A DNA stretch of 23,603 bases from a virus. The stretch lies in IMG/VR virus record IMGVR_UViG_3300042445_000063, positions 1 to 23,603 of that record. One strand, 5' to 3'. The notes under the pieces were generated by a model. That model saw only the letters and a program-made list of their open reading frames with translations. It did not search any database and was not told the origin of the DNA. Positions 1 to 22,202 of the stretch are shown here, in pieces. The first letter of the stretch is position 1; each line of letters opens with the position of its first letter. The translations under genes were made by a program, and so were the position numbers.

Positions 1-2064
1 GTCAAAAATGTATGGCCCAGTTGTTTCGTCATCGGCTTGCGCAAACGGCCTGCCAGTGACATACAACTCCATTTGGCCTGTTTGCACAAAGTCAGGCTCA
101 ACACGCTCAATTCTTAACCAAACGTTTTCTCCAACCATTTGGTCTTGTGATGGCCCACCAGCTACCAATCCAAGATCACTTGTTTCAAAATAACTTGGGA
201 TGGCAAGCACAGCTTGGTCTGTCACCTGATTTGTGCCAACCTCATGTTGCCAAACAGACACTTGATTTGCAGGCGAACTGAATGTCAATATTTGAGTGCC
301 AGAACCTGTGGCATTCGCACTTAATGTGATGGTTTGTGCATAAATAGCAGCAACAGTCACACTAAAACCCGCCCCTGCGCCAATGCTTGCGCTTGACAAT
401 AAATTTCCAACAACATAACCAGCGCCTCGGCCAACAATCGTGCATGCGGTAACAATGCCGCCAGCAACAGTGATGTTTGCTGTTGCAGAGAACCCAGACC
501 CGCCAGTTAGAGCTACCGCTGTATATGTGCCGTTGGTATATCCCGTTCCCCCAACAAGAGTATTAATTGTTTGAATAGAGCTTGTTGTGATACCAGTAAC
601 AGTTGTTCCAAGTGCAATGTTTGTCCCGCTTACCACTTGCTCTGGGACAACATCCACGTTGTACGTTGTTAAAAATATTTTGTTGCTTGCATTGGTAGTG
701 GTCATTGATTGCGTAAAAACAATCGTTGATACAGACGCTTCCCAACTGGCGCTAATGGGGTAATGAAAAACTTGCGAAAAGTATCCCGCCGAGCGACGAG
801 CGGCAACTGCCTGTCCAGCGTCATACCAGATGTTTTCGCGCACGTTGTAAATGACTGCGTCCGTGCATTCTGTTGCATTACCTCGGGGGTAGTACCACCA
901 AATTTCCCCATAACGAGGAACTTTTTGCACCCATACTTTTTGACGCTGTGAGTAATTCAAATTGTCAAAAAAGTAGTTTTGATTCATGGTGTTGGGAATT
1001 TCTTTCACAACACCGTTGTACATCAGGAAGCGATCAGAACCAACCCAATAATAAATGCCGTCATACTCAATTGCTGACTGACTGGAAAGGATTGAGGACT
1101 GACTTGAAATCAAGTCATATCGCCAGTATTGGATAGGAGTGCCAACGCCACCAATGTACGAAACACGGATCAAGCTATCAAGGCTCCAAAACAGTCCAGA
1201 AGGGGCGTTTGAGCCGCCTCGCACTGGTAGCCCTTGCACAATCTTTCCTGTGGCTACGTTGGTCTCGTTTGCGTCCGCAGACACCCAATCTGTCAGATCC
1301 CCAGCAGAACAGTTTTTGATTAGGCCATCATTGCCATAAATAAAAACATACGGATGCAAAGTCACAATCCCGCCAGATACGGAGATGTTGTTGTCAAACG
1401 TAATTGTTGCCGTATTGGCATTTGTAGTTGCCAAAGACAAATTGACAGTGGTAGTGCTGACAGACGTAACAGTAGTGCCAACAGCTATGCCATCACCAGT
1501 TACGGTTTGTCCAGCTCCAATACGAACATCACTTGCAGGCAATGTAAGGCTAGTTGCCCCAGATGCTTTAGTGCATCCAGCCACTGAAAACACGCCAATT
1601 TTTGACATGGTTGTGCCTAACGTGCTGCCATACAAGGGAGGCGTATTGGTTGTGCTGTCGATTTGCAGGAGGTTTTGCCCCGGGTGCGCCAACACCACAC
1701 TGAGCCCAGCTCCAGCAACATCGTAAAACCCATCGAACTGCCACAAGTTGTTGTTTGATGCAGTGAAATTTGATAGCGTGAAATCACTTACGCCGCCACC
1801 AGTCCCAACATCATCAACAACCAATACTTGCAAACCGTTGTTGTAGCCGCTGTAGACCGCCGTAAAGCCATCTTTTGGGTCTACCCACATGCCTCTGGAT
1901 GGGCCTCTCAATTGGCCTGAAATCTGGTTGAACCCACCCATTTTTCTTGGTCGTCCACGTTGAAACCTTACCCACTGACCATCAGTGTAGTAATTCATGT
2001 CAAACACAGTTCCGTCTCGCTGAATGCCAGCAAGAGTACGAAGGGCAAAAACTTTTGCCGTCAT
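1..2064 (-). CDS. Putative tail nozzle / P22 gp10-like stabilization protein, 3' end cut by window
   Basis: Open for 688 codons from ATG at 2064 to the window edge with no stop, so the C-terminus is missing. The start is fixed by a TAATG junction with the upstream gene. The core (about residues 1-160, 226-448 and 598-688) has the look of the beta-propeller-type nozzle proteins that cap the short tail (P22 gp10, T7 gp12): a GGFNQISG-like N-terminus, an IEYDGIYYWVGSDRF stretch near 332-346, a WWYYP segment near 389, an IYNVRENIWYD segment near 405, and a FVQTGQMELYVTGRPF segment near 659. P22 gp10 is about 470 aa; this protein is already longer because of two inserts (about 161-225 and 449-597) that look like mobile virion beta domains. 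It follows an adaptor and a fibre-like gene, which fits a tail role. The assignment comes from remembered family patterns; nozzle function is inferred. Confidence 0.65.
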   Translation of the reverse strand, partial: MTAKVFALRTLAGIQRDGTVFDMNYYTDGQWVRFQRGRPRKMGGFNQISGQLRGPSRGMWVDPKDGFTAVYSGYNNGLQVLVVDDVGTGGGVSDFTLSNFTASNNNLWQFDGFYDVAGAGLSVVLAHPGQNLLQIDSTTNTPPLYGSTLGTTMSKIGVFSVAGCTKASGATSLTLPASDVRIGAGQTVTGDGIAVGTTVTSVSTTTVNLSLATTNANTATITFDNNISVSGGIVTLHPYVFIYGNDGLIKNCSAGDLTDWVSADANETNVATGKIVQGLPVRGGSNAPSGLFWSLDSLIRVSYIGGVGTPIQYWRYDLISSQSSILSSQSAIEYDGIYYWVGSDRFLMYNGVVKEIPNTMNQNYFFDNLNYSQRQKVWVQKVPRYGEIWWYYPRGNATECTDAVIYNVRENIWYDAGQAVAARRSAGYFSQVFHYPISASWEASVSTIVFTQSMTTTNASNKIFLTTYNVDVVPEQVVSGTNIALGTTVTGITTSSIQTINTLVGGTGYTNGTYTAVALTGGSGFSATANITVAGGIVTACTIVGRGAGYVVGNLLSSASIGAGAGFSVTVAAIYAQTITLSANATGSGTQILTFSSPANQVSVWQHEVGTNQVTDQAVLAIPSYFETSDLGLVAGGPSQDQMVGENVWLRIERVEPDFVQTGQMELYVTGRPFAQADDETTGPYIFD

Positions 2065-3299
2065 TAGAACGCGCCCCCAGAAATACCGCCAGTAAATGTG
2101 CCAGTTCCGTAAATGGTCAAACCTGTTGATGTCAGTGCAGACATTTGGACGCCAAGCACAGCCATGCTCAAGTTCCCAGATGATGGGCGATACATGCCTG
2201 TTGAGGTTTCTGCGTTGAAGTTGAGGCCCGGTGTGCCAGCAGTGCCATCCGACACGCTCAAAATTGATGCGCCAGCAATGGTCGTATTTGCATTAAACAA
2301 ATTGACCGAGTCACAAACCAAAGTAACTTGATTGGATGCCGTTAATGTTGCGGTTTGGGCTCCAACTACGCCAGTTGTCACTGTCACTGAATAAATTCCA
2401 GTGGTTTCATTCAAGATGTAATAAACCTGAACCGTTTGCGGGATGACCACCGTGCAATTGCCACTCAAAGCGCCTGTGAACTTGATAATCACGTTGGCCG
2501 CTTCAGCGGACGACAGTGTGTATGAGCCCGATACCAGCGGCTTGGTCAATTGGGTAAAGTTAAATTGCGTTGGAGAACTCAGGCCAACCGAATAAAACGC
2601 AGACCCAGAGCAAACAATCATGCAGGAGTCTGCTGGCTGCAACAACACCGTAGTTGATCCATTGAAGAAATCAGACCCGTTGGTATTGATAGACAAAGTA
2701 CCAGAACCGCCGTTGCGAACCATGGTGAACCAATTGTTGCCAAGGCTACTAGCAGATGGCAAGGTTAGTGTTCCAGCGCCGCCAGTCCATACGTTTGTCT
2801 GCGCACGAAAATCGGCAGTTGCTGTTTCGCTGGATGAAAACGTCACAACAGGATGGCTTTGATTTAACGTGCTAGAAATTGCCAATACACCATAACCAGC
2901 CAAGGTTGCCGCATCCGCCGAAGATGAGCCAACACCAAATGCAATATTGCCCCAAGTGCCTTGTGAATTGGCATTGGTGGTGATGTACACATATTTGGTT
3001 TCGCCAGCCGCAATGGTGATCAGCGTATTGGTTCCAGCAAAATCTTTGACTGTGAATGTGTTGCTTCCAACGTTGCGGATCAACGCATCATTACCAACCG
3101 AAGTTTGATCTGCTGGTGGCATCAGCAAAGACAACCCAGCAGTCGATGCGGTGACCTGCATGATCCGAGCGGCGTAGTTGTCAGTTGCGTTGCCGTTGAT
3201 CGGCCAACTCAATTGAGTATCAGCCGTTAACGTGATTGCGCGGTATGAAACGTCAGTCGGCTGAATGACGTTCCCTGTGAATGGACTGTTGTAACTCAT
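2064..3299 (-). CDS. Tail fibre/appendage-like structural protein with three beta modules
   Basis: 411 aa, starting at ATG 3299 inside an ATGA overlap with the adaptor gene and ending in a TAATG junction with the nozzle-like gene. The sequence is rich in Ser, Thr, Gly and Asn and lacks charged stretches, as in beta-structured virion fibres. Three successive modules (about residues 40-120, 165-240 and 265-340) share one pattern: a hydrophobic-Pro strand (LLMPP, LTLPS, VVIPQ), a residue run ending in an Asn-rich turn, a T/S-rich strand and a final Tyr-containing strand. Residues 351-371 (DGTAGTPGLNFNAETSTGMY region) resemble the segment that in many phage fibres precedes a peptidase S74 chaperone, but no S74 domain follows: the protein ends in GISGGAF. 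Placed between adaptor and nozzle, it is probably attached to the tail. Exact role unknown. Confidence 0.75.
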   Translation of the reverse strand: MSYNSPFTGNVIQPTDVSYRAITLTADTQLSWPINGNATDNYAARIMQVTASTAGLSLLMPPADQTSVGNDALIRNVGSNTFTVKDFAGTNTLITIAAGETKYVYITTNANSQGTWGNIAFGVGSSSADAATLAGYGVLAISSTLNQSHPVVTFSSSETATADFRAQTNVWTGGAGTLTLPSASSLGNNWFTMVRNGGSGTLSINTNGSDFFNGSTTVLLQPADSCMIVCSGSAFYSVGLSSPTQFNFTQLTKPLVSGSYTLSSAEAANVIIKFTGALSGNCTVVIPQTVQVYYILNETTGIYSVTVTTGVVGAQTATLTASNQVTLVCDSVNLFNANTTIAGASILSVSDGTAGTPGLNFNAETSTGMYRPSSGNLSMAVLGVQMSALTSTGLTIYGTGTFTGGISGGAF

Positions 3300-3931
3300 G
3301 TGTCAAGTACCACTGCCTGTCTATCACCAATCCGAGTCAGGTCTTCGGCCCTCAAGGTTTGGATGATCTTGTCATACTGTTGTTGCCACAGCGGCGTTCT
3401 GGTGTCGTTCTTCAAGAATGGCATTGCTTGAAGCAGTGAGCCATACAAAAGAGCTTGCGGGGCATAGATCGTGAACCAGTTGGTTTGATTGCTGGAGTCC
3501 AAGGGCTGAACGCGCTCGTAATACAGCACTTCAAAATTGAAGGCAGAGGCTGGCGTTGGGGCAACCAGCCAATGCGTGTAGTCATAGTCACAATAAAACT
3601 TGGGCGTATCCGTTGCTGCTGGATCAGGCCAATATTCGCGCAAATACTCATACTTGCGCAACAACACGGGCTGGCGCTTACCAGCTACCGTGATGTTCAT
3701 TGAAACTGTTTTGTGCCAACGGGCTGGCTTGTCAATCGTGGCCTGACTTGCCACCATATTGCTTGTATTGACAGTTAAATTACCCAGAAATTTGATTTCT
3801 GTCGCAATAACTTGCTCCGCCAGCATGATGAACAACGGTATTTTTTCCAAAGTAGCCGTGTCAGTACGCTCCAAATAGCTTTGGATGTTTTCAACAAGGC
3901 TGTCATATGTCATCACACTTGCGGTAGTCAT
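3296..3931 (-). CDS. Phage adaptor protein (SU10-type head-to-tail adaptor)
   Basis: 211 aa from ATG at 3931. An in-frame TTG lies six bases further upstream (3937), but the AAAGG ribosome site sits 6 nt before the ATG, so the ATG is preferred. The N-terminus (MTYDSLVENIQSYLERTD, then a helix with FIMLAEQVIATEIKFLG) and the middle segment with PARWHKTVSM are typical of the adaptor family described for phage SU10, functionally like P22 gp4: a ring of helical proteins that bind under the portal and receive the tail. The C-terminal half has the usual beta strand pair (WLVAPTP, FEVLYYERVQPL) and a helical end (QALLYGSLLQAMPFLKND, then QQQYDKIIQTLRAED). It overlaps the next gene by four bases (ATGA), implying coupled translation. 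Family assignment is firm; the structural role comes from family knowledge. Confidence 0.82.
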   Translation of the reverse strand: MTTASVMTYDSLVENIQSYLERTDTATLEKIPLFIMLAEQVIATEIKFLGNLTVNTSNMVASQATIDKPARWHKTVSMNITVAGKRQPVLLRKYEYLREYWPDPAATDTPKFYCDYDYTHWLVAPTPASAFNFEVLYYERVQPLDSSNQTNWFTIYAPQALLYGSLLQAMPFLKNDTRTPLWQQQYDKIIQTLRAEDLTRIGDRQAVVLDT

Positions 3932-3986
3932 AACCAACCTTTCTTCGTTGCGTTATTTTAAGCCTTGCACCCGTCTATGGCAACCG

Positions 3987-6467: not shown

Positions 6468-9400
6468 TTATCCAATCAGTAAGCCGTAACTTTTGCTGGG
6501 CAGCGTGGAAGGAATTGTGTAAAGAAAAATAACTGCGCCAACACCGCCGTTGCCGCCATTTCCTGATGTAGCGCCACCACCTCCGCCACCCGCGCCAGCG
6601 GCAATTGATGGGCTTCCACCAGCACCGCCAATTCCAGTTCCATTTCCTCGACCACCACCACCACCACCACCAGATCCACCAAAAATAGTTGAAATAACAG
6701 TATTGCCGTTTATTTGAGTAACGTAGTATTCGCCGCTATAGCCTGATGCTCCTCCTGCGCCTCCATTGGTATTTGTTGTAGTGGCAAATCCGCCGCCTCC
6801 GCCACCACCGCCATATAGGCCCGCATCACCATCCGCACCCGCCAAGCCTCCTATTGCCACATTAGAAGATAAATCCAAACCGCCGTTTGCTCCCGATCCC
6901 GTTGCAGCCGGTGAAGTTGATCCAATACCCAGCGCCCCGCCACCACCGCCACCTCCAGCTTGCGCGGTTGATGAAGGCGATTGGTTTGAGAATGCAAACA
7001 TAGTGCGTAAGGTTGCAGCCGCCCCACCACCGCCACCGCTTTCAGAAGTTTGCTGACCCGTGCCAGCAGCAGCACCTATCAATACTTGACTTCTTGATGC
7101 TGTTGCTCCAGCGCTTGTGCCGCCAGCAGGAGCGCCACTTGCACCTGCCGCATAAATTCCATTATGCAGCGCTGTTGGATTTGCGTTTGTCACAGTGTTT
7201 AACCAAGAGTCACCTCCAGCTTGTCCAGAAGTTCCTGCTACGGTTGCGTTTACACCGCCCTTACCAGCTTGAAAATAAATAGTTTGACCAGCGCTTATAT
7301 TATTTAAATTTGAAAACATAGCCAACCGCCCAGATCCAGCGCCACCTGAACCAGAACCTGATGCCTTGCCAGCACCGCCACCGCCACCATACACAATACA
7401 TAAATTTGATCCCTGATAATTTGCGGGAACAACAAATGATCCTGTTACATTTACTCCTACAACACCCGTGTAAACCAAACCAGTCACTGTTGATGTAAAA
7501 GTAATTCCTGAATTTCGCGCTATATTTGCTACACCAAGAGCCAATAAAGAATAAGCCCCAGATTTTATAATTCCCCAATAAGCTACATAAGCTGTGACAG
7601 AGCCAATTGCAATTGAAAGAGTTGCAGTTGTTGACGCTTGAGATGAAGTTATAAGACTTCCTGTATATCCAGCAACAACTAATATTGGCGCTGACGCAGT
7701 GCCAATTAAATTAAAATTTGTAAAATTATATGATACAGAAGGTGTTAGCCATAAAGAACAAGGAGCGGTTCCTGTACTGTCTATTGAATTAAAACTCATT
7801 GGGCCATCAAGCCAAAATTGATTTGTATAGCCATCTGCTGTAACGCGAGTTGCATTTAAACGAAGCCTATAGAATGTATGATTATAAGCTTTTAATTTTG
7901 TGTATGCATTTGCAGTATTAATACTATTTAAAACAATAGTTGATGTCCCTGCGTTTACAGTCACAAGGTATTTAAAGTTTATCTCGTTATATCCCGCCCC
8001 ATTTGATGTTAAAGTGCTGCTGCCCAAATTTATAGTTGGCAAAACTGGGATTGACCAATTAAAAAGTCCAGATAGAAAGTTAGAGTCAGTAATTAAATTA
8101 CCAAATGTTACATTATAATTATTTGTTGTAAACGTCCCCGTTAAAATATAAATTGAACTTACGGTATCATAATTTGCTGATAATGTGACAGTTGCTCCCA
8201 GCGCTATATATATGTTATATCCATTGTATACATAATTACTTGCGCCAACACTTATATTTGATCTTACTGCATAGATAGTATTGCAACTATATGAGGAACT
8301 CGGATTAGTCAAAGTTCCATAAATGATAGGAAACCAATACCCAGTAGGTTGTGTAATAGCATTTGTGTATCCAGTTGTATTTAAACTTGCGCACAAATAA
8401 GGCATATCTACGCTTACAGAATGATTTCCTGAGTTTGCATCAAAAACTACATTATCTTGCGGTAATGGTACGCGAGCGACTGTTGGCCCCCCGCTTGATG
8501 GAGACCACATTGCGCTAGACCAAAGTGTTGGTGATGCAGTCATTTTTGCATAACATGTAATTGGCGTATCAAAAGTGCTTGCGGGGAATATATTACCCCC
8601 ACAATCGCCTACAAGTGTAAGAGGCCCAAGCGCTGAACCAGAATTGGTCAACGTAACATCTTGAAAATTAACCCACTTCAAAGTTTTAACACTAGCCGTT
8701 GCGCTAGTAGTTGTAATTGTTCGTGGCGTTCCCCAAACATTAGATAGAACCATTAATCTTTGGTTGCTTGCGTTGCTTCCTTGCAAAGTTAATGCGCCAG
8801 TAACTGTTTGATTTGCATACAAAAGAAAATTAACTGGCCAAACGTAAGAAGTTGAAGCGTTAAATTGAGTTGCAGTTACAGTTAAATTTGCAAACGTATT
8901 TGTGCCGTGAATTTGACCATATAAACAATTAATGTTTACCGTATTAAATGTACTTGTATATGATTCATTTCCCATTGTTGAACTGTTAATGCCTACAAAA
9001 GAACCTCCAGTGTTGTTTGTTACTGATCCAATATTTATTGTAGATGTTCCAGCATTAAACGTCATGCCAACATTTGTGAAATAAATAGAATAAAATGTTC
9101 CTACTTGAACTGCGGAGCCAGAAGTAGATACAGCAACTGTTCCACAATTTATCGTAGAAGCGCCAAGCGTTAATGACCTTGCATAACCACCACCAGCATT
9201 ATCGCCAAAACGATTACCAACAGTAACAGTTTGTCCGTTTGTGTTTAATGCGCCACTGTATAAAGAAATAGCACTTGCTGTTATTGGCGAAGTAAAACTC
9301 CATCCGCCAGTCACTACTGATCCATTAGTAGCTCCAAAAGTTAAATTGTTAATTATAGGAGTGGCTGTAGTGCAAGAAACAGTGTTGCCTGTTGTGGATG

Positions 9401-9716
9401 ACCGCATATTAAAGCTGAATCCTTGGGCAAAACCTAAAGTTGTTGTGCTACTTAACGTTAAACTTCCATAAATATCGTTAAAATAATTATTTGGATTAAA
9501 TAACAAAAACCCATTTACGCCTGTAGTATCAAGAGATGCGCAACTAACACCGCTGCCAAGTGTTACAGTGCCAGTACCTGAGTTTGCGTTAAAAAATACA
9601 TTATCTGATGATGTTGGTGCAGATGCCCCACTAGCCCCACCACTGGTCGCAGACCAGTTGGCTGTTGACGAGGTATTCCATGTGCCAGTGCCGCCTACCC
9701 AGTATCTATCAGCCAT
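6468..9716 (-). CDS. Large adhesin/tail-fibre-like protein: two ~370-aa repeats plus glycine-rich C-terminal domain
   Basis: 1082 aa, with AGGAG upstream of ATG 9716. Residues 1-~390 and ~391-~755 are two diverged copies of one beta-rich unit: DNVFFNANSG at 38-47 matches DNVVFDANSG at 421-430, CASLDTTG at 59-66 matches CASLNTTG at 442-449, IYGSLT at 82-87 matches IYGTLT at 465-470, and NAGTSTI near 221 matches NAGTSTI near 588. The repeat (opening YWVGGTGTWN) is common in phage structural proteins, likely a beta-solenoid or sandwich. From about 776 to 1064 there are long Gly runs separated by short hydrophobic segments, like the Gly-rich receptor-binding tips of some phage adhesins. It is probably exposed on the tail and contacts the host. 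The repeat-coding DNA is visibly AT-richer than the Gly-rich end. Confidence 0.82.
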   Translation of the reverse strand: MADRYWVGGTGTWNTSSTANWSATSGGASGASAPTSSDNVFFNANSGTGTVTLGSGVSCASLDTTGVNGFLLFNPNNYFNDIYGSLTLSSTTTLGFAQGFSFNMRSSTTGNTVSCTTATPIINNLTFGATNGSVVTGGWSFTSPITASAISLYSGALNTNGQTVTVGNRFGDNAGGGYARSLTLGASTINCGTVAVSTSGSAVQVGTFYSIYFTNVGMTFNAGTSTINIGSVTNNTGGSFVGINSSTMGNESYTSTFNTVNINCLYGQIHGTNTFANLTVTATQFNASTSYVWPVNFLLYANQTVTGALTLQGSNASNQRLMVLSNVWGTPRTITTTSATASVKTLKWVNFQDVTLTNSGSALGPLTLVGDCGGNIFPASTFDTPITCYAKMTASPTLWSSAMWSPSSGGPTVARVPLPQDNVVFDANSGNHSVSVDMPYLCASLNTTGYTNAITQPTGYWFPIIYGTLTNPSSSYSCNTIYAVRSNISVGASNYVYNGYNIYIALGATVTLSANYDTVSSIYILTGTFTTNNYNVTFGNLITDSNFLSGLFNWSIPVLPTINLGSSTLTSNGAGYNEINFKYLVTVNAGTSTIVLNSINTANAYTKLKAYNHTFYRLRLNATRVTADGYTNQFWLDGPMSFNSIDSTGTAPCSLWLTPSVSYNFTNFNLIGTASAPILVVAGYTGSLITSSQASTTATLSIAIGSVTAYVAYWGIIKSGAYSLLALGVANIARNSGITFTSTVTGLVYTGVVGVNVTGSFVVPANYQGSNLCIVYGGGGGAGKASGSGSGGAGSGRLAMFSNLNNISAGQTIYFQAGKGGVNATVAGTSGQAGGDSWLNTVTNANPTALHNGIYAAGASGAPAGGTSAGATASRSQVLIGAAAGTGQQTSESGGGGGAAATLRTMFAFSNQSPSSTAQAGGGGGGGALGIGSTSPAATGSGANGGLDLSSNVAIGGLAGADGDAGLYGGGGGGGGFATTTNTNGGAGGASGYSGEYYVTQINGNTVISTIFGGSGGGGGGGRGNGTGIGGAGGSPSIAAGAGGGGGGATSGNGGNGGVGAVIFLYTIPSTLPSKSYGLLIG

Positions 9717-11611: not shown

Positions 11612-12685
11612 TTACCTCGTATACACAGAAATGTTTGGCGCGTAATAAATTGGCGACTTGTCTCGCTCTTCTTGTTCCGCCATTTGGAAGTATTTTTCGG
11701 CCTGCCCTTCCAGATATTGGATGCGGTCAACGGCCACGCCGGGCAGCTCCTGCGACATCTGGTGCGCCAACATACATTGGATCGCCAGATACCAGCGTTG
11801 AGGAATCTCAACCTCGTCCGTCAGATCTCCAACATCCATGACTTGGCGGGAATACCAAACCACCATCTGGTAGAACGGGTCTTGCGGGACAGGCCACAAG
11901 TTGATCTGAGCCTGCGGAATTGTTCTGTTGAACCAGAACTGAAACGGCTGGTTGGCGGTGAAGTTCTTGTTTGGCAGGTTGGTGTAGTCGTCACGGTTCA
12001 GTCGAGCCATGGTGATTTCAGTGCTGTTTTCGCCAAAAAACAGTTCACGCACACCCAGAGTAGTGCCTCCAGTGGCTCTGAGGCGGTAGTACGGGTTGTT
12101 GGCCCCGGGGTCAATGTCTGTCCACACCCACTGGCTATCAGTCACCGCAACCGAAGTCCCTGTGTACAAGGTTTGCCACGTTGCGCCATCAGCCGAAGTC
12201 TCGATCACATAACTCCAAACCTGACTGCCACCACCAGCAATGTAGGGCATGAAGCCCACAGAGCCAATGTAGTATGGCGTGGTAGATCCGTAATTGATCG
12301 AGATGTTGCCGTTTGCCGATGTCTGCAAGCAATACGTTGCAGTATTGTTGTCAAAGGCGTTGTCCGCATTTCCGCCAGCAGAAGATCCGTATATGCCTGT
12401 TGGTCGCGTCATGCGCCTGTACAGGGCGTTCAAAACATCGTTGCCGCCTACTGGCAAGTCATAAATGTATTGATTTGGATTTAAGCCGTAAACAACTTTA
12501 TTGATGGCCCAATAATTGATGCCTTGGTTGATCAGATTACTCAGGACGTAAAAAAGCGACTCTCTGGCAGAAAGTACTTGTTCCGAAGTAAGTTCTTCGG
12601 CCAACTTACCAGATCGACGCGCACCATGATCAATGAATGTTTGAACATTGATGACAGTCGTGCCAACCGTTCCAGAGTACGCCAT
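11612..12685 (-). CDS. Adaptor/connector-like protein with inserted galactose-binding (F5/8C-like) domain
   Basis: 357 aa. The outer parts form one protein: an N-terminal helical region (TFIDHGARRSGKLAEELTSEQVLSARESLFYVLSNLINQG, given here in parts: residues 17-55) and a C-terminal region with a strand pair around INLWPVPQDPFYQMVVWY and helices WYLAIQCMLAHQM and RIQYLEGQAEKYFQMAEQEE. That order, helices then strands then helices, mirrors the SU10/P22 gp4-type adaptor at 3931-3296. Between about 97 and 218 is an inserted beta domain: NAFDNNTATYCLQT, then IGSVGFMPYI, YVIETSADGATWQTLYTG and YYRLRATGG, the pattern of F5/8 type C (discoidin) domains, which bind sugars or surfaces. The insert could be exposed on the neck. 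Adaptor role is inferred from topology; the insert type is the stronger call. Confidence 0.75.
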   Translation of the reverse strand: MAYSGTVGTTVINVQTFIDHGARRSGKLAEELTSEQVLSARESLFYVLSNLINQGINYWAINKVVYGLNPNQYIYDLPVGGNDVLNALYRRMTRPTGIYGSSAGGNADNAFDNNTATYCLQTSANGNISINYGSTTPYYIGSVGFMPYIAGGGSQVWSYVIETSADGATWQTLYTGTSVAVTDSQWVWTDIDPGANNPYYRLRATGGTTLGVRELFFGENSTEITMARLNRDDYTNLPNKNFTANQPFQFWFNRTIPQAQINLWPVPQDPFYQMVVWYSRQVMDVGDLTDEVEIPQRWYLAIQCMLAHQMSQELPGVAVDRIQYLEGQAEKYFQMAEQEERDKSPIYYAPNISVYTR

Positions 12686-13223: not shown

Positions 13224-13430
13224 TTACTCTGTTGGTGGCAACTCGTCTGGGGGTTCTGGGACGACAGGCTCGATCCAGTTTTCACCGTTCAAAGTCCAGC
13301 CAATGCCAATATGGTCAGGGGCAGGAATACAGTCGATTCCCTCTGGCGGTTGCCATCTATTCAAGTCTCCATCCCACAAACTGACGTTTTCAACAACGCC
13401 GTTACGAATCATTGCGTATCTGATTACCAT
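13224..13430 (-). CDS. Small accessory protein following glycine-rich fibre genes
   Basis: 68 aa; ATG 13430 overlaps the end of the 450-aa glycine-rich gene by seven bases. The sequence is a short beta-type unit (IRYAMIRNGVVENVSLWDGD, then a W-x-PPEGIDCIP segment and IGIGWTLNGENWIEP) with a Pro/Glu-rich tail. Small proteins of this look, with a NGVVxNVxxWDG pattern, commonly sit directly after tail-fibre genes in phages and are often taken as fibre-associated or assembly proteins. No catalytic features are seen. The context role is inferred. Confidence 0.75.
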   Translation of the reverse strand: MVIRYAMIRNGVVENVSLWDGDLNRWQPPEGIDCIPAPDHIGIGWTLNGENWIEPVVPEPPDELPPTE

Positions 13431-14776
13431 GAAATCACCACTACCTTTCCTGCTGCTCCTGTACCACCTTGACCACCGATGTTGGTTCCACCACCACCGC
13501 CTCCTCCCCCGCCTCCGGGTACGCCACCGTCACCGCCCTTTGAGCCAGTTCCAGCATTATTGGCCGCACCACCTGCGCCTCCTGCGCCAGCTTTGGTTGA
13601 ATCTCCTGCCGCACCATTGGCTGATGCTGTACCTGTGTTGATTGCCGCACTTGCCGCACCACCACCTGCCGCAGTAGCCGCGCCACCTGTTGAACCACCT
13701 GCGCCGCCTAATTGTGAAGTGCCGGGGGTTGCCGCATCAATACCGCCACCGCCACCACCTCCTGATGAGGAGAAATATGATGAGCCGCCTGCTCCTCCCG
13801 CTACGGATGACATTGATCCACCGCCACCGCCACCGCCACCTAAATATGATGAACCAGCGGCGGTAGTTGTAGTTGTGCCAGTTGATCCACCTGCGCCTCT
13901 ATGGTCAGGAGTGGAGGCTGGTGATACTCCTCCACTACTTGTTACTGTGGCACAGGCTCCGCCAGTTGCGCCTGTTTGGGTTGTTGACGATGATCCTGCG
14001 GCAGTACCGCCTCCACCGCCACCACCACCACCTGCGTTAGCCGCATTTGCTCCACCGCCTCCACCGCCATAGGCAACCAAAAAGTTGCCAAACTGAGATG
14101 TATTACCAACTGCTCCAGCAGTACCTGTGGCAGTTGTACCGCCAGCACCGCCAATTCTAGAAGCGGCAACAGTAACACCAACAAAAGGCGTGATTTCAGC
14201 AGTGAGGAATTGCATTTGCACATGTAATCCACCACCACCACCACCGCCACCACCTCTTATAGTTCCAGCAGGCTGACCTGTACCACCACCTCCAGAACCT
14301 CCACCACCATAGCAATTAACAAGCGTGTATGTGGCTCCTGAAGGTCGAGTCCAAATACCATTGGCAGTAAATACTTGAATATCAGTTACAGCGGTTGGCG
14401 CAATAAGAATATTGCCATTGGAATCAATGATTGACCAACCTCTTGTGTCAGTAAACTGCAATGTACAGTTAGGCGCAAGCGCCATTGATGCCACATAGTT
14501 GTATGTTGTCCCATTGTCATTTAAACGCACAGTCACGTTTACAAAATCTGTGTCTTTGTTGGCAATAGAGATGAAATTGACTTTTCTTTGCGTAGATGCC
14601 GCTGGCGCAGAAAGGATGTCAACAGCAGTTGCGCCGTTTGTTGTGGAAAGCTGAAGTGCTGGTGTTGTGGTTGTTGAAGTGAAGTCAACATAGTCAACTG
14701 CAACAGGCAATTGATTGGCAGTAACTGCCGCATCTAGCAGGATTTGAAGTTTTCGAGTTGTTGCGTCAAGTATCAT
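13424..14776 (-). CDS. Glycine-rich tail adhesin-like protein, paralogue 3 of 3
   Basis: 450 aa. The N-terminal domain (about 1-130: MILDATT, LPVAVDYVDF, ILSAPAASTQRKVNFISIANKD, LQFTDTRGWSII) is shared with the two upstream neighbours. Next comes a short strand pair (VFTANGIWTRPSGATYTLV, 135-153) and a long Gly-dominated domain with runs of up to about nine glycines alternating with short Ala/Thr/Ser segments, ending in GAAGKVVVISW. This matches the Gly_rich domain type found in phage tail tips. In the Salmonella phage S16 adhesin such glycine tracts form packed polyglycine-II helices presenting receptor-binding loops; the same fold here is an inference. The ATG (14776) is 4 nt after the preceding stop and has only a weak ribosome site, so reinitiation is likely. 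Confidence 0.85.
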   Translation of the reverse strand: MILDATTRKLQILLDAAVTANQLPVAVDYVDFTSTTTTPALQLSTTNGATAVDILSAPAASTQRKVNFISIANKDTDFVNVTVRLNDNGTTYNYVASMALAPNCTLQFTDTRGWSIIDSNGNILIAPTAVTDIQVFTANGIWTRPSGATYTLVNCYGGGGSGGGGTGQPAGTIRGGGGGGGGGLHVQMQFLTAEITPFVGVTVAASRIGGAGGTTATGTAGAVGNTSQFGNFLVAYGGGGGGANAANAGGGGGGGGGTAAGSSSTTQTGATGGACATVTSSGGVSPASTPDHRGAGGSTGTTTTTAAGSSYLGGGGGGGGSMSSVAGGAGGSSYFSSSGGGGGGGIDAATPGTSQLGGAGGSTGGAATAAGGGAASAAINTGTASANGAAGDSTKAGAGGAGGAANNAGTGSKGGDGGVPGGGGGGGGGGTNIGGQGGTGAAGKVVVISW

Positions 14777-14780
14777 ATTT

Positions 14781-16097
14781 TTACCAACAGTAGACTACTA
14801 CACGACCAGCCGCACCATTGCCACCAGCACCGCCTGTGGATGTGCCTCCACCTCCACCTCCACCGCCACCTCCGGGGAAGCCCCCTGCACCACCAGCGCC
14901 ACCAGTACCTGCATTGTTTCCGCCGCCGCCGCCGCCGCCTGTACCACAAGCTATAGATGATCCTGTTGAGCCAGCAGTTCCTGCCGCACCAGTTGCCGCA
15001 CCGCCTGCACCGCCACCCCCTGCGGTAGTTGCAGAGCCACCAGTAGTGCCGCCTGCACCACCTGCGTATGCAGTTCCGGGTGTTGCGGCAGATACACCAC
15101 CTCCGCCTCCGCCACCAGCCGCAGAGTAATATGAACTTCCGCCATCGAACCCTGCTGCTGAAACATATGATCCAGACGCTCCGCCACCACCTCCTAAATA
15201 AGAGGATAATCCATTTTGTGTATTGCCTCCGTATCCCCCAATATTGGTTGAAGATAAAGCTGAAACAGTACCCGCCAAAAAAGCAGATCCTCCAAGGCTC
15301 CCGCCATTACCTGTAGTTGATGCGCCAACAGATGTTCCGCCACCGCCTCCGCCGCCTCCACCTCCACCAAAACTTTGTCCTCCACCGCCGCCACCACCAG
15401 CGTACCCATAAAGCAATGTGCCAAAAGATGAGTTATTGCCAACAGAACCATTTGCGTTTGAAGCGCCTCCAGTAGAAGCGCCTCCAACAGTTACAGAAAC
15501 AGTAGAAGCCAAATCAGATATTTGAAAAATAGAAGTTAATCTATTTCCACCACCACCTGTTCCTCCGCCATATCTAGCATTACCAGCCGCCGCGCCTCTA
15601 CCACCGCCGCCACTACCACCACCACCTGTTACTTCAACATAAGCAACTGAACAATTGGCAGGTTTGCTCCATGTGTCGTTAGCCGTATAAATTCTTACAT
15701 CAGAATATGCAGAACCTTGGGCAGACAAAATTTGACCAGAAGCGTTGATTACAAACCAGCCTCTTGTGTCTGTGAATTGAAGTGTAGAACCAACAGCAAT
15801 AACCATTGATTGAGCAACAGCATATTTGACTGTGTTGTCATTGATTTGAATGGTTACCGTTATCGGTGATGTGTCTTTGTTGGCAACAGTGATGCCGTTG
15901 ATTTTGTATTGTGTGCTTGCTGCTGGGGCAGAAAGAACTGTGACCGCAGTAGTTGAGTTTGTATTACTTAGTTGAACAGACGGCGTAGTTGCGCTTGCAG
16001 TGAACGAAACATAGTCAACCGTCACAGGAGACTGGTTAGCTGCTACTGCCGAGCCAAGTACGATTTCAAGTGTTTGTGTTGTACTGTTTAATATCAT
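14781..16097 (-). CDS. Glycine-rich tail adhesin-like protein, paralogue 2 of 3
   Basis: 438 aa from ATG 16097, which shares its A with the TAA of the previous gene (TAATG); an in-frame TTG 12 nt upstream is possible but the ATG aligns with the starts of both paralogues (MILDATT, MIITSSQ). Domain order is the same: conserved N-terminal domain (1-130, with TLEIVLGSAVAANQSPVTVDY and LQFTDTRGWFVI), a bridging strand pair (IYTANDTWSKPANCSVAYVEV), then a glycine-rich domain from about 157 to the end, closing with GAAGRVVVYCW. Its glycine-tract spacers differ from those of the neighbours, so the three proteins would present different surface loops. Likely a receptor-binding or decorating tail protein; function inferred. 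Confidence 0.85.
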   Translation of the reverse strand: MILNSTTQTLEIVLGSAVAANQSPVTVDYVSFTASATTPSVQLSNTNSTTAVTVLSAPAASTQYKINGITVANKDTSPITVTIQINDNTVKYAVAQSMVIAVGSTLQFTDTRGWFVINASGQILSAQGSAYSDVRIYTANDTWSKPANCSVAYVEVTGGGGSGGGGRGAAAGNARYGGGTGGGGNRLTSIFQISDLASTVSVTVGGASTGGASNANGSVGNNSSFGTLLYGYAGGGGGGGQSFGGGGGGGGGGGTSVGASTTGNGGSLGGSAFLAGTVSALSSTNIGGYGGNTQNGLSSYLGGGGGASGSYVSAAGFDGGSSYYSAAGGGGGGGVSAATPGTAYAGGAGGTTGGSATTAGGGGAGGAATGAAGTAGSTGSSIACGTGGGGGGGNNAGTGGAGGAGGFPGGGGGGGGGGTSTGGAGGNGAAGRVVVYCW

Positions 16098-17389
16098 TAC
16101 CAACCCCAAACTCTAACTTGACCTGCCGCACCTTTGCCACCAGCACCGCCTGTTGTAAGACCCGCACCACCACCACCACCACCACCACATGGGAAACCAC
16201 CGTCACCGCCTTTCCCGCCAGTTCCTGTGGCATTAGAACCACCACCAGAACCTCCAGTACCCGCCCATCCAGCAATGGATAAACCTTGTAAACCTTGTCC
16301 ACCTCCAGCAATACCACCAGTCAGCGCCCCTGTCGTACTAACTGCACCCAATCCACCACTTAAACCAACTGTTCCACCTGCTGATTGAGCATTAGCGGCA
16401 GTCAATCCGCCGCCTCCACTACCGCTTCCACCACTAAACCATGAACCATAAGAGCTTCCACCAACAGTGCCGAGGCTAGACCCGTTCCCACCTGCTGCGC
16501 CCCCCCAAAAAGAAGTATTTGCCGATGTACTGCCACTTGCCCCACGGCTATCAGCATAAGAGGTTGTAGTTGTAGTCGCGGCAAAAGCAGCTCCGCCAGT
16601 AACTGGTGTGGAGCTTGTAGCAGAATTTCCAGCGGAGGTTCCGCCTCCGCCGCCTCCGGGCTGCCCTCCTGATGCACTAGAGCCAAGTGCTCCTCCACCA
16701 CCAGCATAACCAATCAAAAAAGCACCAAAAGATGAATTGTTCCCGACACTGCCGCTATTATTTGAACTTGCAGAAGATGTTTGCGCGCCAACAGTCACAG
16801 TAACTGATGAAGGCAAATCTTTAGCAAGGAATAACTGACGCTTTCTTATACCGCCGCCGCCACTTCCAGCACCAGAGCGTATTACACCAGCAGAACCGCC
16901 TTGGCCTCCTCCACCTCCTCCACCTCCAGCAGAGACTTCCACAAGGAAGAATCGGCAGTTACCCGGCTTATACCAAGTTCCATTACTGTTGAAATCTTGC
17001 ACCCAACCACTGCGTAGTTCAGCGATGCCGCCTGATGTGCCAATCAACCCCCATCCGTTTTGATCGGTGTATTGGAGTGTTTGACCTCTTGGGACAACAA
17101 TAGACTTGATGACTTCGTATTTCACCCCAGCCACATCAAACCGCACAGTCACCGAAATACTGGTCGTATCAGCGTTGTAGATTGTGATGTTGTTGACTTT
17201 GCGCTGCAAACCTGCCGATGGTGCTGACAGTATGGTTACAGCCGTTGTCGAATTGGTTGTTGTTGCGTTTAAAGCTGGCGTTGTAGTTGACGAGGAAAAC
17301 TGAACATAATCCACAGTCACAGGTGACTGATTGGTGGCAACAACAGCATCAAGTACAACTTCAAGGGTTTGTGATGAAGTAATAATCAT
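16097..17389 (-). CDS. Glycine-rich tail adhesin-like protein, paralogue 1 of 3
   Basis: 430 aa, starting in an ATGA overlap with the 75-aa gene. The N-terminal domain (MIITSSQTLEVVLDAVVATN, SPVTVDYVQF, ILSAPSAGLQRKVNNITIYNAD, LQYTDQNGWGLI) clearly pairs with those of the next two genes, and the bridge (FNSNGTWYKPGNCRFFLVEV, about 133-152) leads into a long glycine-rich domain ending GAAGQVRVWGW. The conserved last residues G-AAG-x-V-x-V-xx-W across the three copies suggest that the C-terminal strand is structurally needed. It is the first full-length adhesin downstream of the predicted promoter at 17682-17655, so it may be strongly expressed. Receptor binding is inferred from the domain type. 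Confidence 0.85.
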   Translation of the reverse strand: MIITSSQTLEVVLDAVVATNQSPVTVDYVQFSSSTTTPALNATTTNSTTAVTILSAPSAGLQRKVNNITIYNADTTSISVTVRFDVAGVKYEVIKSIVVPRGQTLQYTDQNGWGLIGTSGGIAELRSGWVQDFNSNGTWYKPGNCRFFLVEVSAGGGGGGGGQGGSAGVIRSGAGSGGGGIRKRQLFLAKDLPSSVTVTVGAQTSSASSNNSGSVGNNSSFGAFLIGYAGGGGALGSSASGGQPGGGGGGTSAGNSATSSTPVTGGAAFAATTTTTSYADSRGASGSTSANTSFWGGAAGGNGSSLGTVGGSSYGSWFSGGSGSGGGGLTAANAQSAGGTVGLSGGLGAVSTTGALTGGIAGGGQGLQGLSIAGWAGTGGSGGGSNATGTGGKGGDGGFPCGGGGGGGAGLTTGGAGGKGAAGQVRVWGW

Positions 17390-21200: not shown

Positions 21201-22202
21201 TTAACTGACCAAATTTTGGTTAACACCAAAAGCACCAATTCGGGTGGCATTTGGGCCTGCGGCAATTGCTGGAAGCATGATGCCAAGAACCAGACGCTTA
21301 ATGCCGTCAGGAGCGGTGGATGGACTGAACGTGCCGCGAACATCACCAGTGGTGGTGGTTGCGGTAGCGGTATCAGCAGCAGCCAAAGTACCTGTGTCAA
21401 GAGTAAAGCCACTGTTCCAACCAACGTGGGAAATGTACACGCCGCTGGTGACGCGAACTGGCAAGCCAATCAATTGGGTTGTGCCAACAGTAATGGTCGA
21501 TGTGGTTGCCGCGCTGCCAGAAACGCTCAGAATCTGATAGAAGGCTTTCTTGCCGTTGGTGGTAGTTGATGCCGCAACGCCTGACGCAATAACTTCGCTC
21601 ATTGGTTGACCGTACAAATCCCAACCAGTGATGGTGATATTGGAGCTAGTAGTTGTACCAGTGCCAGTTGTCACGCTTAATGCGCGAGGAGTGTCCAATT
21701 GAGTCACAGATGTGCCATTAGCACGAACGACTCGCTTGCCGCCCAAAGTGCTGGTAGTCAACAGTGTGAGTGCGCCTGCGCCTGCGGGTGTTTGCGATGC
21801 GCAAATGTTTGCAGCGTTTGCGGTCAAAGGAACAACATCAAACGTGTAGATACGACCCATGGGGCCAATACCTGTGTCCATTTGTGAAGGGTCTTGCAAA
21901 TAGTTTTGACCTTGGGTGTAAATGGTCGTGCTAGATGCTGTTTGAGACACGTTTACGGTGTAAGTACCAACACCACCATAACCAGTTCCATAACCAGTAA
22001 TGTATGTGCCAGCAGTAACGCCAGTACCGTTAACCCATTGACCAACTGTTATTGGCTCACCTTGCAAAATAGCAGTGATAGTGAGTGTGCCGCCATTGGT
22101 GGTAGCAATTGAACCAGTGTAAGTGCCACTAGTTGGATAGGTAGCAGTACCCATCGCGGTTGGGGCTGCGCCCAAGAAAAGGTCGTCTGAAAATTGAGGC
22201 AT
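21201..22202 (-). CDS. Structural protein following the capsid gene, with inserted beta domain
   Basis: 333 aa with AAGGAGAAG before ATG 22202. It is Ser/Thr/Gly-rich and beta-predicted. Residues about 26-97 form a separate unit ([31 protein letters not shown] in strands, ending [16 protein letters not shown]) that I recognise as a domain found inserted in many unrelated phage virion proteins. The rest ([19 protein letters not shown] from about 108, [34 protein letters not shown], and an end with [14 protein letters not shown]) looks like one continuous virion domain. Its position directly downstream of the capsid gene suggests a head decoration or other abundant head protein; the exact role is not established. 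Confidence 0.75.

Follow-up and report, generated by a model that had tools for sequence, protein, structure and literature searches.

The window analysed here, a stretch of 23,603 nt that makes up the whole of viral genome record IMGVR_UViG_3300042445_000063, carries on its minus strand an open reading frame (2064-1) that encodes 688 aa and is open at the window edge. Its product matches PHROG 3287, annotated as a virion structural protein. An AlphaFold model was generated from a 71-row alignment, with rows L001 and L002 excluded, to a mean pLDDT of 85, and the whole model was used to search solved folds. The top eight matches all came from short-tailed-type phages (Pa223, VP1, SU10, Pan3 and A4) and were tail or portal-tail chains, and P22 gp10 was matched with an E-value of 2e-5, with modest TM-scores of 0.3-0.4. 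The profile of the family matches the Pa223 nozzle (9nwi_Y, E 1.3e-15) and the VP1 nozzle gp16 (E 8e-12). Given these fold and profile matches and the SU10-type adaptor gene nearby (Table 1), the product is the tail nozzle of a phage of the short-tailed type, bearing out an earlier note, made from the sequence alone, that had called it nozzle-like. The window nozzle has no Pfam match, and no Ig or Big Pfam families were found in six of its relatives.

Table 1. Coordinates of the nozzle gene, its modules and the neighbouring tail genes in the window
Feature	Position	Strand	Nozzle residues	Basis
Tail nozzle gene (P22 gp10/SU10-type beta-propeller), truncated at 3' end by window	1..2064	-		fold, profile, PHROG
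Module A2, right part, loop 2	274..333	-	578-597	profile and model
Module B, nested at the A2 hairpin tip	334..588	-	493-577	profile and model
Module A2, left part, loop 2	589..723	-	448-492	profile and model
Module A1, uninterrupted, loop 1	1390..1596	-	157-225	profile and model
Loop 0 site, empty in the window nozzle	1807..1809	-	86	relatives' inserts
Fibre-like gene, between adaptor and nozzle	2064..3299	-		ORF/PHROG listing
SU10-type tail adaptor gene, two genes upstream of nozzle	3296..3937	-		PF24175, E 3e-24

The earlier note had also described a unit at residues 169-225 that recurs, split in two, at 458-492 and 578-597. A profile of module A was built from 125 uninterrupted loop-1 A segments of relatives, and against it the rejoined halves of A2 score 47 bits (E 1.2e-13), compared with 9.5 bits for the best of 1020 composition shuffles. 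At E≤1e-3 the same profile found the rejoined loop-2 halves in 49 out of 51 relatives. If B is not excised, the match to loop 2 breaks into two pieces, and B by itself does not match the loop-1 A profile. The positions were therefore confirmed, with the best bounds being 157-225 for the intact copy and 448-492 joined to 578-597 for the split one.

In the predicted structure A and B appear as separate units and not as one integral fold. The strands predicted for A1 (158-166, 172-174, 187-190, 198-203, 206-209 and 217-224) follow the same order as those of A2 (448-456, 462-465, 477-479, 488-500, then B, 568-581 and 589-596), with pLDDT mostly above 90, while B contributes predicted strands at 512-520, 525-534, 537-548 and 555-557. 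Because the A2 strands flanking B match strands 198-203 and 206-209 of A1, the model places B on the tip of the equivalent hairpin of A2. The nesting of B inside A2 is genuine and has good support. Derivation of A2 from a recent duplication of A1 was considered and rejected, as the interrupted loop-2 copies are far diverged (median PSSM score of 29.6 vs 184 for loop-1 copies). Comparison of A with B gave no match, and only weak matches were obtained between A and module C of some relatives and between A and the capsid decoration protein 8eci (E 0.04).

Relatives were gathered by scanning viral contigs seven times and genome contigs once, taking the best 80 per scan of more than 590 matches, which yielded 233 sequences at 92% redundancy that are those closest to the seven queries and no random sample. 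The state of each loop was called by profile and length. Among these 233 non-redundant matches listed, 17 combinations of modules occur over three loops. Loop 0 is empty in 168 and occupied by B in 61, and in four it has a larger insert that contains B. Loop 1 holds A in 178, is empty in 29, and carries A with C in 18, A with B nested within it, A(B), in four and A split by another beta unit in four. Loop 2 is empty in 76, with B alone in 68, A(B) in 64 and short RVTE repeats in 25. A without B was found at loop 2 in none of the 233 matches listed, and B is kept in all 132 of those with a beta module there.

Individual relatives span the range of these states. The nozzle of Caulobacter phage GB2A has no modules, and the insert-free nozzle L002 (510 aa) spans most of PHROG 3287; L001 carries both A and B. 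Some relatives lack both modules, some have B only and some have an uninterrupted A, the last at loop 1; together these uphold the proposal that a beta domain lies in the nozzle with a second domain inside it. The same note regarded such nesting as unusual, which does not hold within the nozzle family, where nested forms are common (64 of the 233 matches listed at loop 2). At loop 0 of L555 two near-identical B modules lie in tandem, an apparent recent duplication. The predicted model of L076, which has A with C, was poor (pLDDT 60). The sole relative from a genome collection among the matches listed, L563 on the Limnohabitans MAG contig CAMDXR010000008.1, has A with C at loop 1 and A(B) at loop 2; it might represent a phage contig that was assigned to the MAG during binning, and hints at, without proving, a freshwater betaproteobacterial host.

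The point at which A is interrupted was called with a PSSM scoring scheme permitting one long free insert. Among the 64 loop-2 A(B) copies, 34 were too diverged for a call, and the break fell at residues 198-208 of A in all 30 of the remainder. The break lies in the same interval in the four loop-1 A(B) copies (4/4), in the three called copies of A split by other beta units (3/3) and in 12 of 17 called C insertions, the remaining five of which lie at another tip (216-219). The 98 controls (68 with B alone and 30 of plain A) gave no called break. The hairpin tip of A is thus a fixed entry point for most inserts, whether B, C or another beta unit.

The order in which loop 2 was assembled is a separate matter. 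The earlier note proposed that a beta domain was inserted and that a second was then inserted into the first, an order not matched by the loop-2 counts of 64 A(B), 68 B alone and no A alone among the 132 listed. Support for serial insertion comes solely from loop 1, in other phages. At loop 2, replacement of B by a ready-nested A(B) cassette is equally possible; the alternative is that A was present first, with the intermediate since lost or unsampled. That A entered loop 2 first and B then entered A draws on the prevalence of A without B at loop 1 (178 of the 233 matches listed) and on the four relatives whose loop-1 A contains B, but is rather unlikely given that A alone is seen at loop 2 in 0 and B alone in 68 of the 233 matches listed. 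Because the two kinds of loop-2 B group separately, replacement by a ready-made A(B) is slightly favoured. The B modules fall into four groups (loop 0, loop 1 in A, loop 2 alone and loop 2 in A), and this grouping by site and context needs the fewest possible changes, with support of just 72-75 for the two loop-2 groups.

Mapped on a tree of the nozzle core, the loop states changed at least 14 times at loop 0, at least 21 times at loop 1 and at least five times at loop 2. Two nozzles of different clades, L374 and L554, have cores that are 72% identical and both carry A(B) at loop 1, where their B modules are 73% identical and the left halves of A only 48%. Each left half is nearest to the plain A of its own clade. 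As B is so much more alike than the A that flanks it, and each A resembles that of its own clade, B seems, judged from these sequences, to have passed from one clade to another, entering resident loop-1 A domains. In pairs matched for core identity at 82-90%, which are non-independent, the left part of A is about 0.75 identical where the loop-1 state is the same and 0.53 where it differs by C. The unusual difference of A in the pairs differing by C fits an exchange of whole A+C cassettes.

In 18 long records, neither A nor B was found in other parts of the relatives' genomes at E≤0.01, and A, B and C were not found in other ORFs of the examined loci of relatives. The phage collection yielded no hits to consensus modules or to the A(B) segment, an outcome that probably reflects low-complexity filtering and not true absence, given that L001, which has A and B, belongs to that collection. 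Module B is similar to stretches of tail-fibre, baseplate-wedge and head proteins. No A(B) composites were shown in unrelated proteins, where B accounts for the PHROG matches; when the A flanks were added to a B query, the gain was about 6 bits for phrog_460 and little or nothing for most other PHROG families.

The best explanation is that three loops of the nozzle propeller accept small beta modules, that the hairpin tip of A takes further modules (B, C or a different beta unit), and that phages swap these modules by recombination, either one into a resident A or as a ready-nested cassette. The window nozzle has A at loop 1 and A with B on its tip at loop 2. We place the probability of this architecture and module exchange, the binding role apart, at roughly 0.8.

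The role of the modules is less certain. Module exchange probably varies what the tail tip contacts on host cells; we infer that the loops are surface exposed in the nozzle hexamer, and host binding is a plausible, putative role. Among relatives with the window architecture, mean identity is 0.84 for the core (229-435), 0.615 for A1, 0.605 for B and 0.39 for the left part of A2, the most variable stretch. Since B is constant at loop 2, whereas A is optional there and variable, B might be read, tentatively, as the working part that touches host-surface sugars or neighbouring fibres, with A2 as a variable stalk. It is doubtful whether this extends to a scheme in which the hairpin tip of A is a general domain acceptor through which clades build and trade nested nozzle modules, the module at the tip setting host contact and the outer one serving as stalk.

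Almost as likely, the inserted domains lengthen or brace the nozzle, or serve as docking sites for fibres, instead of binding the host. In the SU10 nozzle, Ig-like domains are inserted between propeller blades 2 and 3 (PMC9509320), where they form a tail extension and contact the short fibres (PMC9509320), and by strand count in the model loop 1 of the window nozzle would likewise follow the second blade. The modules of the present family, however, are optional and the insert-free L002 exists, unlike an essential extension. Self-folding beta units might also simply be tolerated at exposed loops as neutral passengers, consistent with the high variability of the left part of A2 and the many loop sites that are empty in relatives. 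This is improbable, as all 132 listed relatives that have a beta module in loop 2 retain B there, and the identity of B is above that of A2.

Most known cases of domain shuffling in phage tails concern fibres, spikes and baseplates. The nozzles of SU10 (gp17) and T7 (gp12), which are fold matches of the window nozzle, are likewise propellers with inserted beta domains; the domains of SU10 lie in a row at one site, whereas in the window family they occupy three sites, are optional and can be nested. The tail hub/nozzle P22 gp10 and PHROG 3287 are matched by fold and by family respectively, and the insert-free L002 covers most of PHROG 3287 without modules. An exchange of modules among related virion proteins has likewise been described as domain mosaicism of phage tail proteins (PMC10684548), a paper in which a text search found no mention of nozzle proteins, nested domains or domain insertion. 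The nested nozzle modules are a variant of this known modular evolution of phage tails. Here a nozzle whose core is 84% identical within the window architecture displays readable states (empty, A, B, A(B), A with C, and A split by a beta unit), and the series includes an apparent move across clades of one module into resident copies of another. How domains become nested is thereby directly testable in a family of hundreds of sequences.

Several other genes of the window, all on the minus strand, have features of their own. The gene at 21201-22202 adjoins the major capsid gene and carries an A-like unit (phrog_21413, phrog_38233), of a kind also inserted in the nozzle of relative L232, which gives a weak match to A. 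Gene 6468-9716 encodes a repetitive glycine-rich protein of 1082 residues in the same cluster as the nozzle. The genes at 13424-14776, 14781-16109 and 16097-17389 are neighbouring paralogues that share 46-55% identity across their first 150 residues and have glycine-rich C-terminal regions. The product of gene 11612-12685 has an F5/8 type C (galactose-binding-like) domain at residues 102-206 inside an SU10-adaptor-like protein, and its adaptor match rises from 17.6 to 25.8 bits once this domain is removed, against a curated cut-off of 27. This phage may thus have a second tail-connector-like protein into which surface modules insert.
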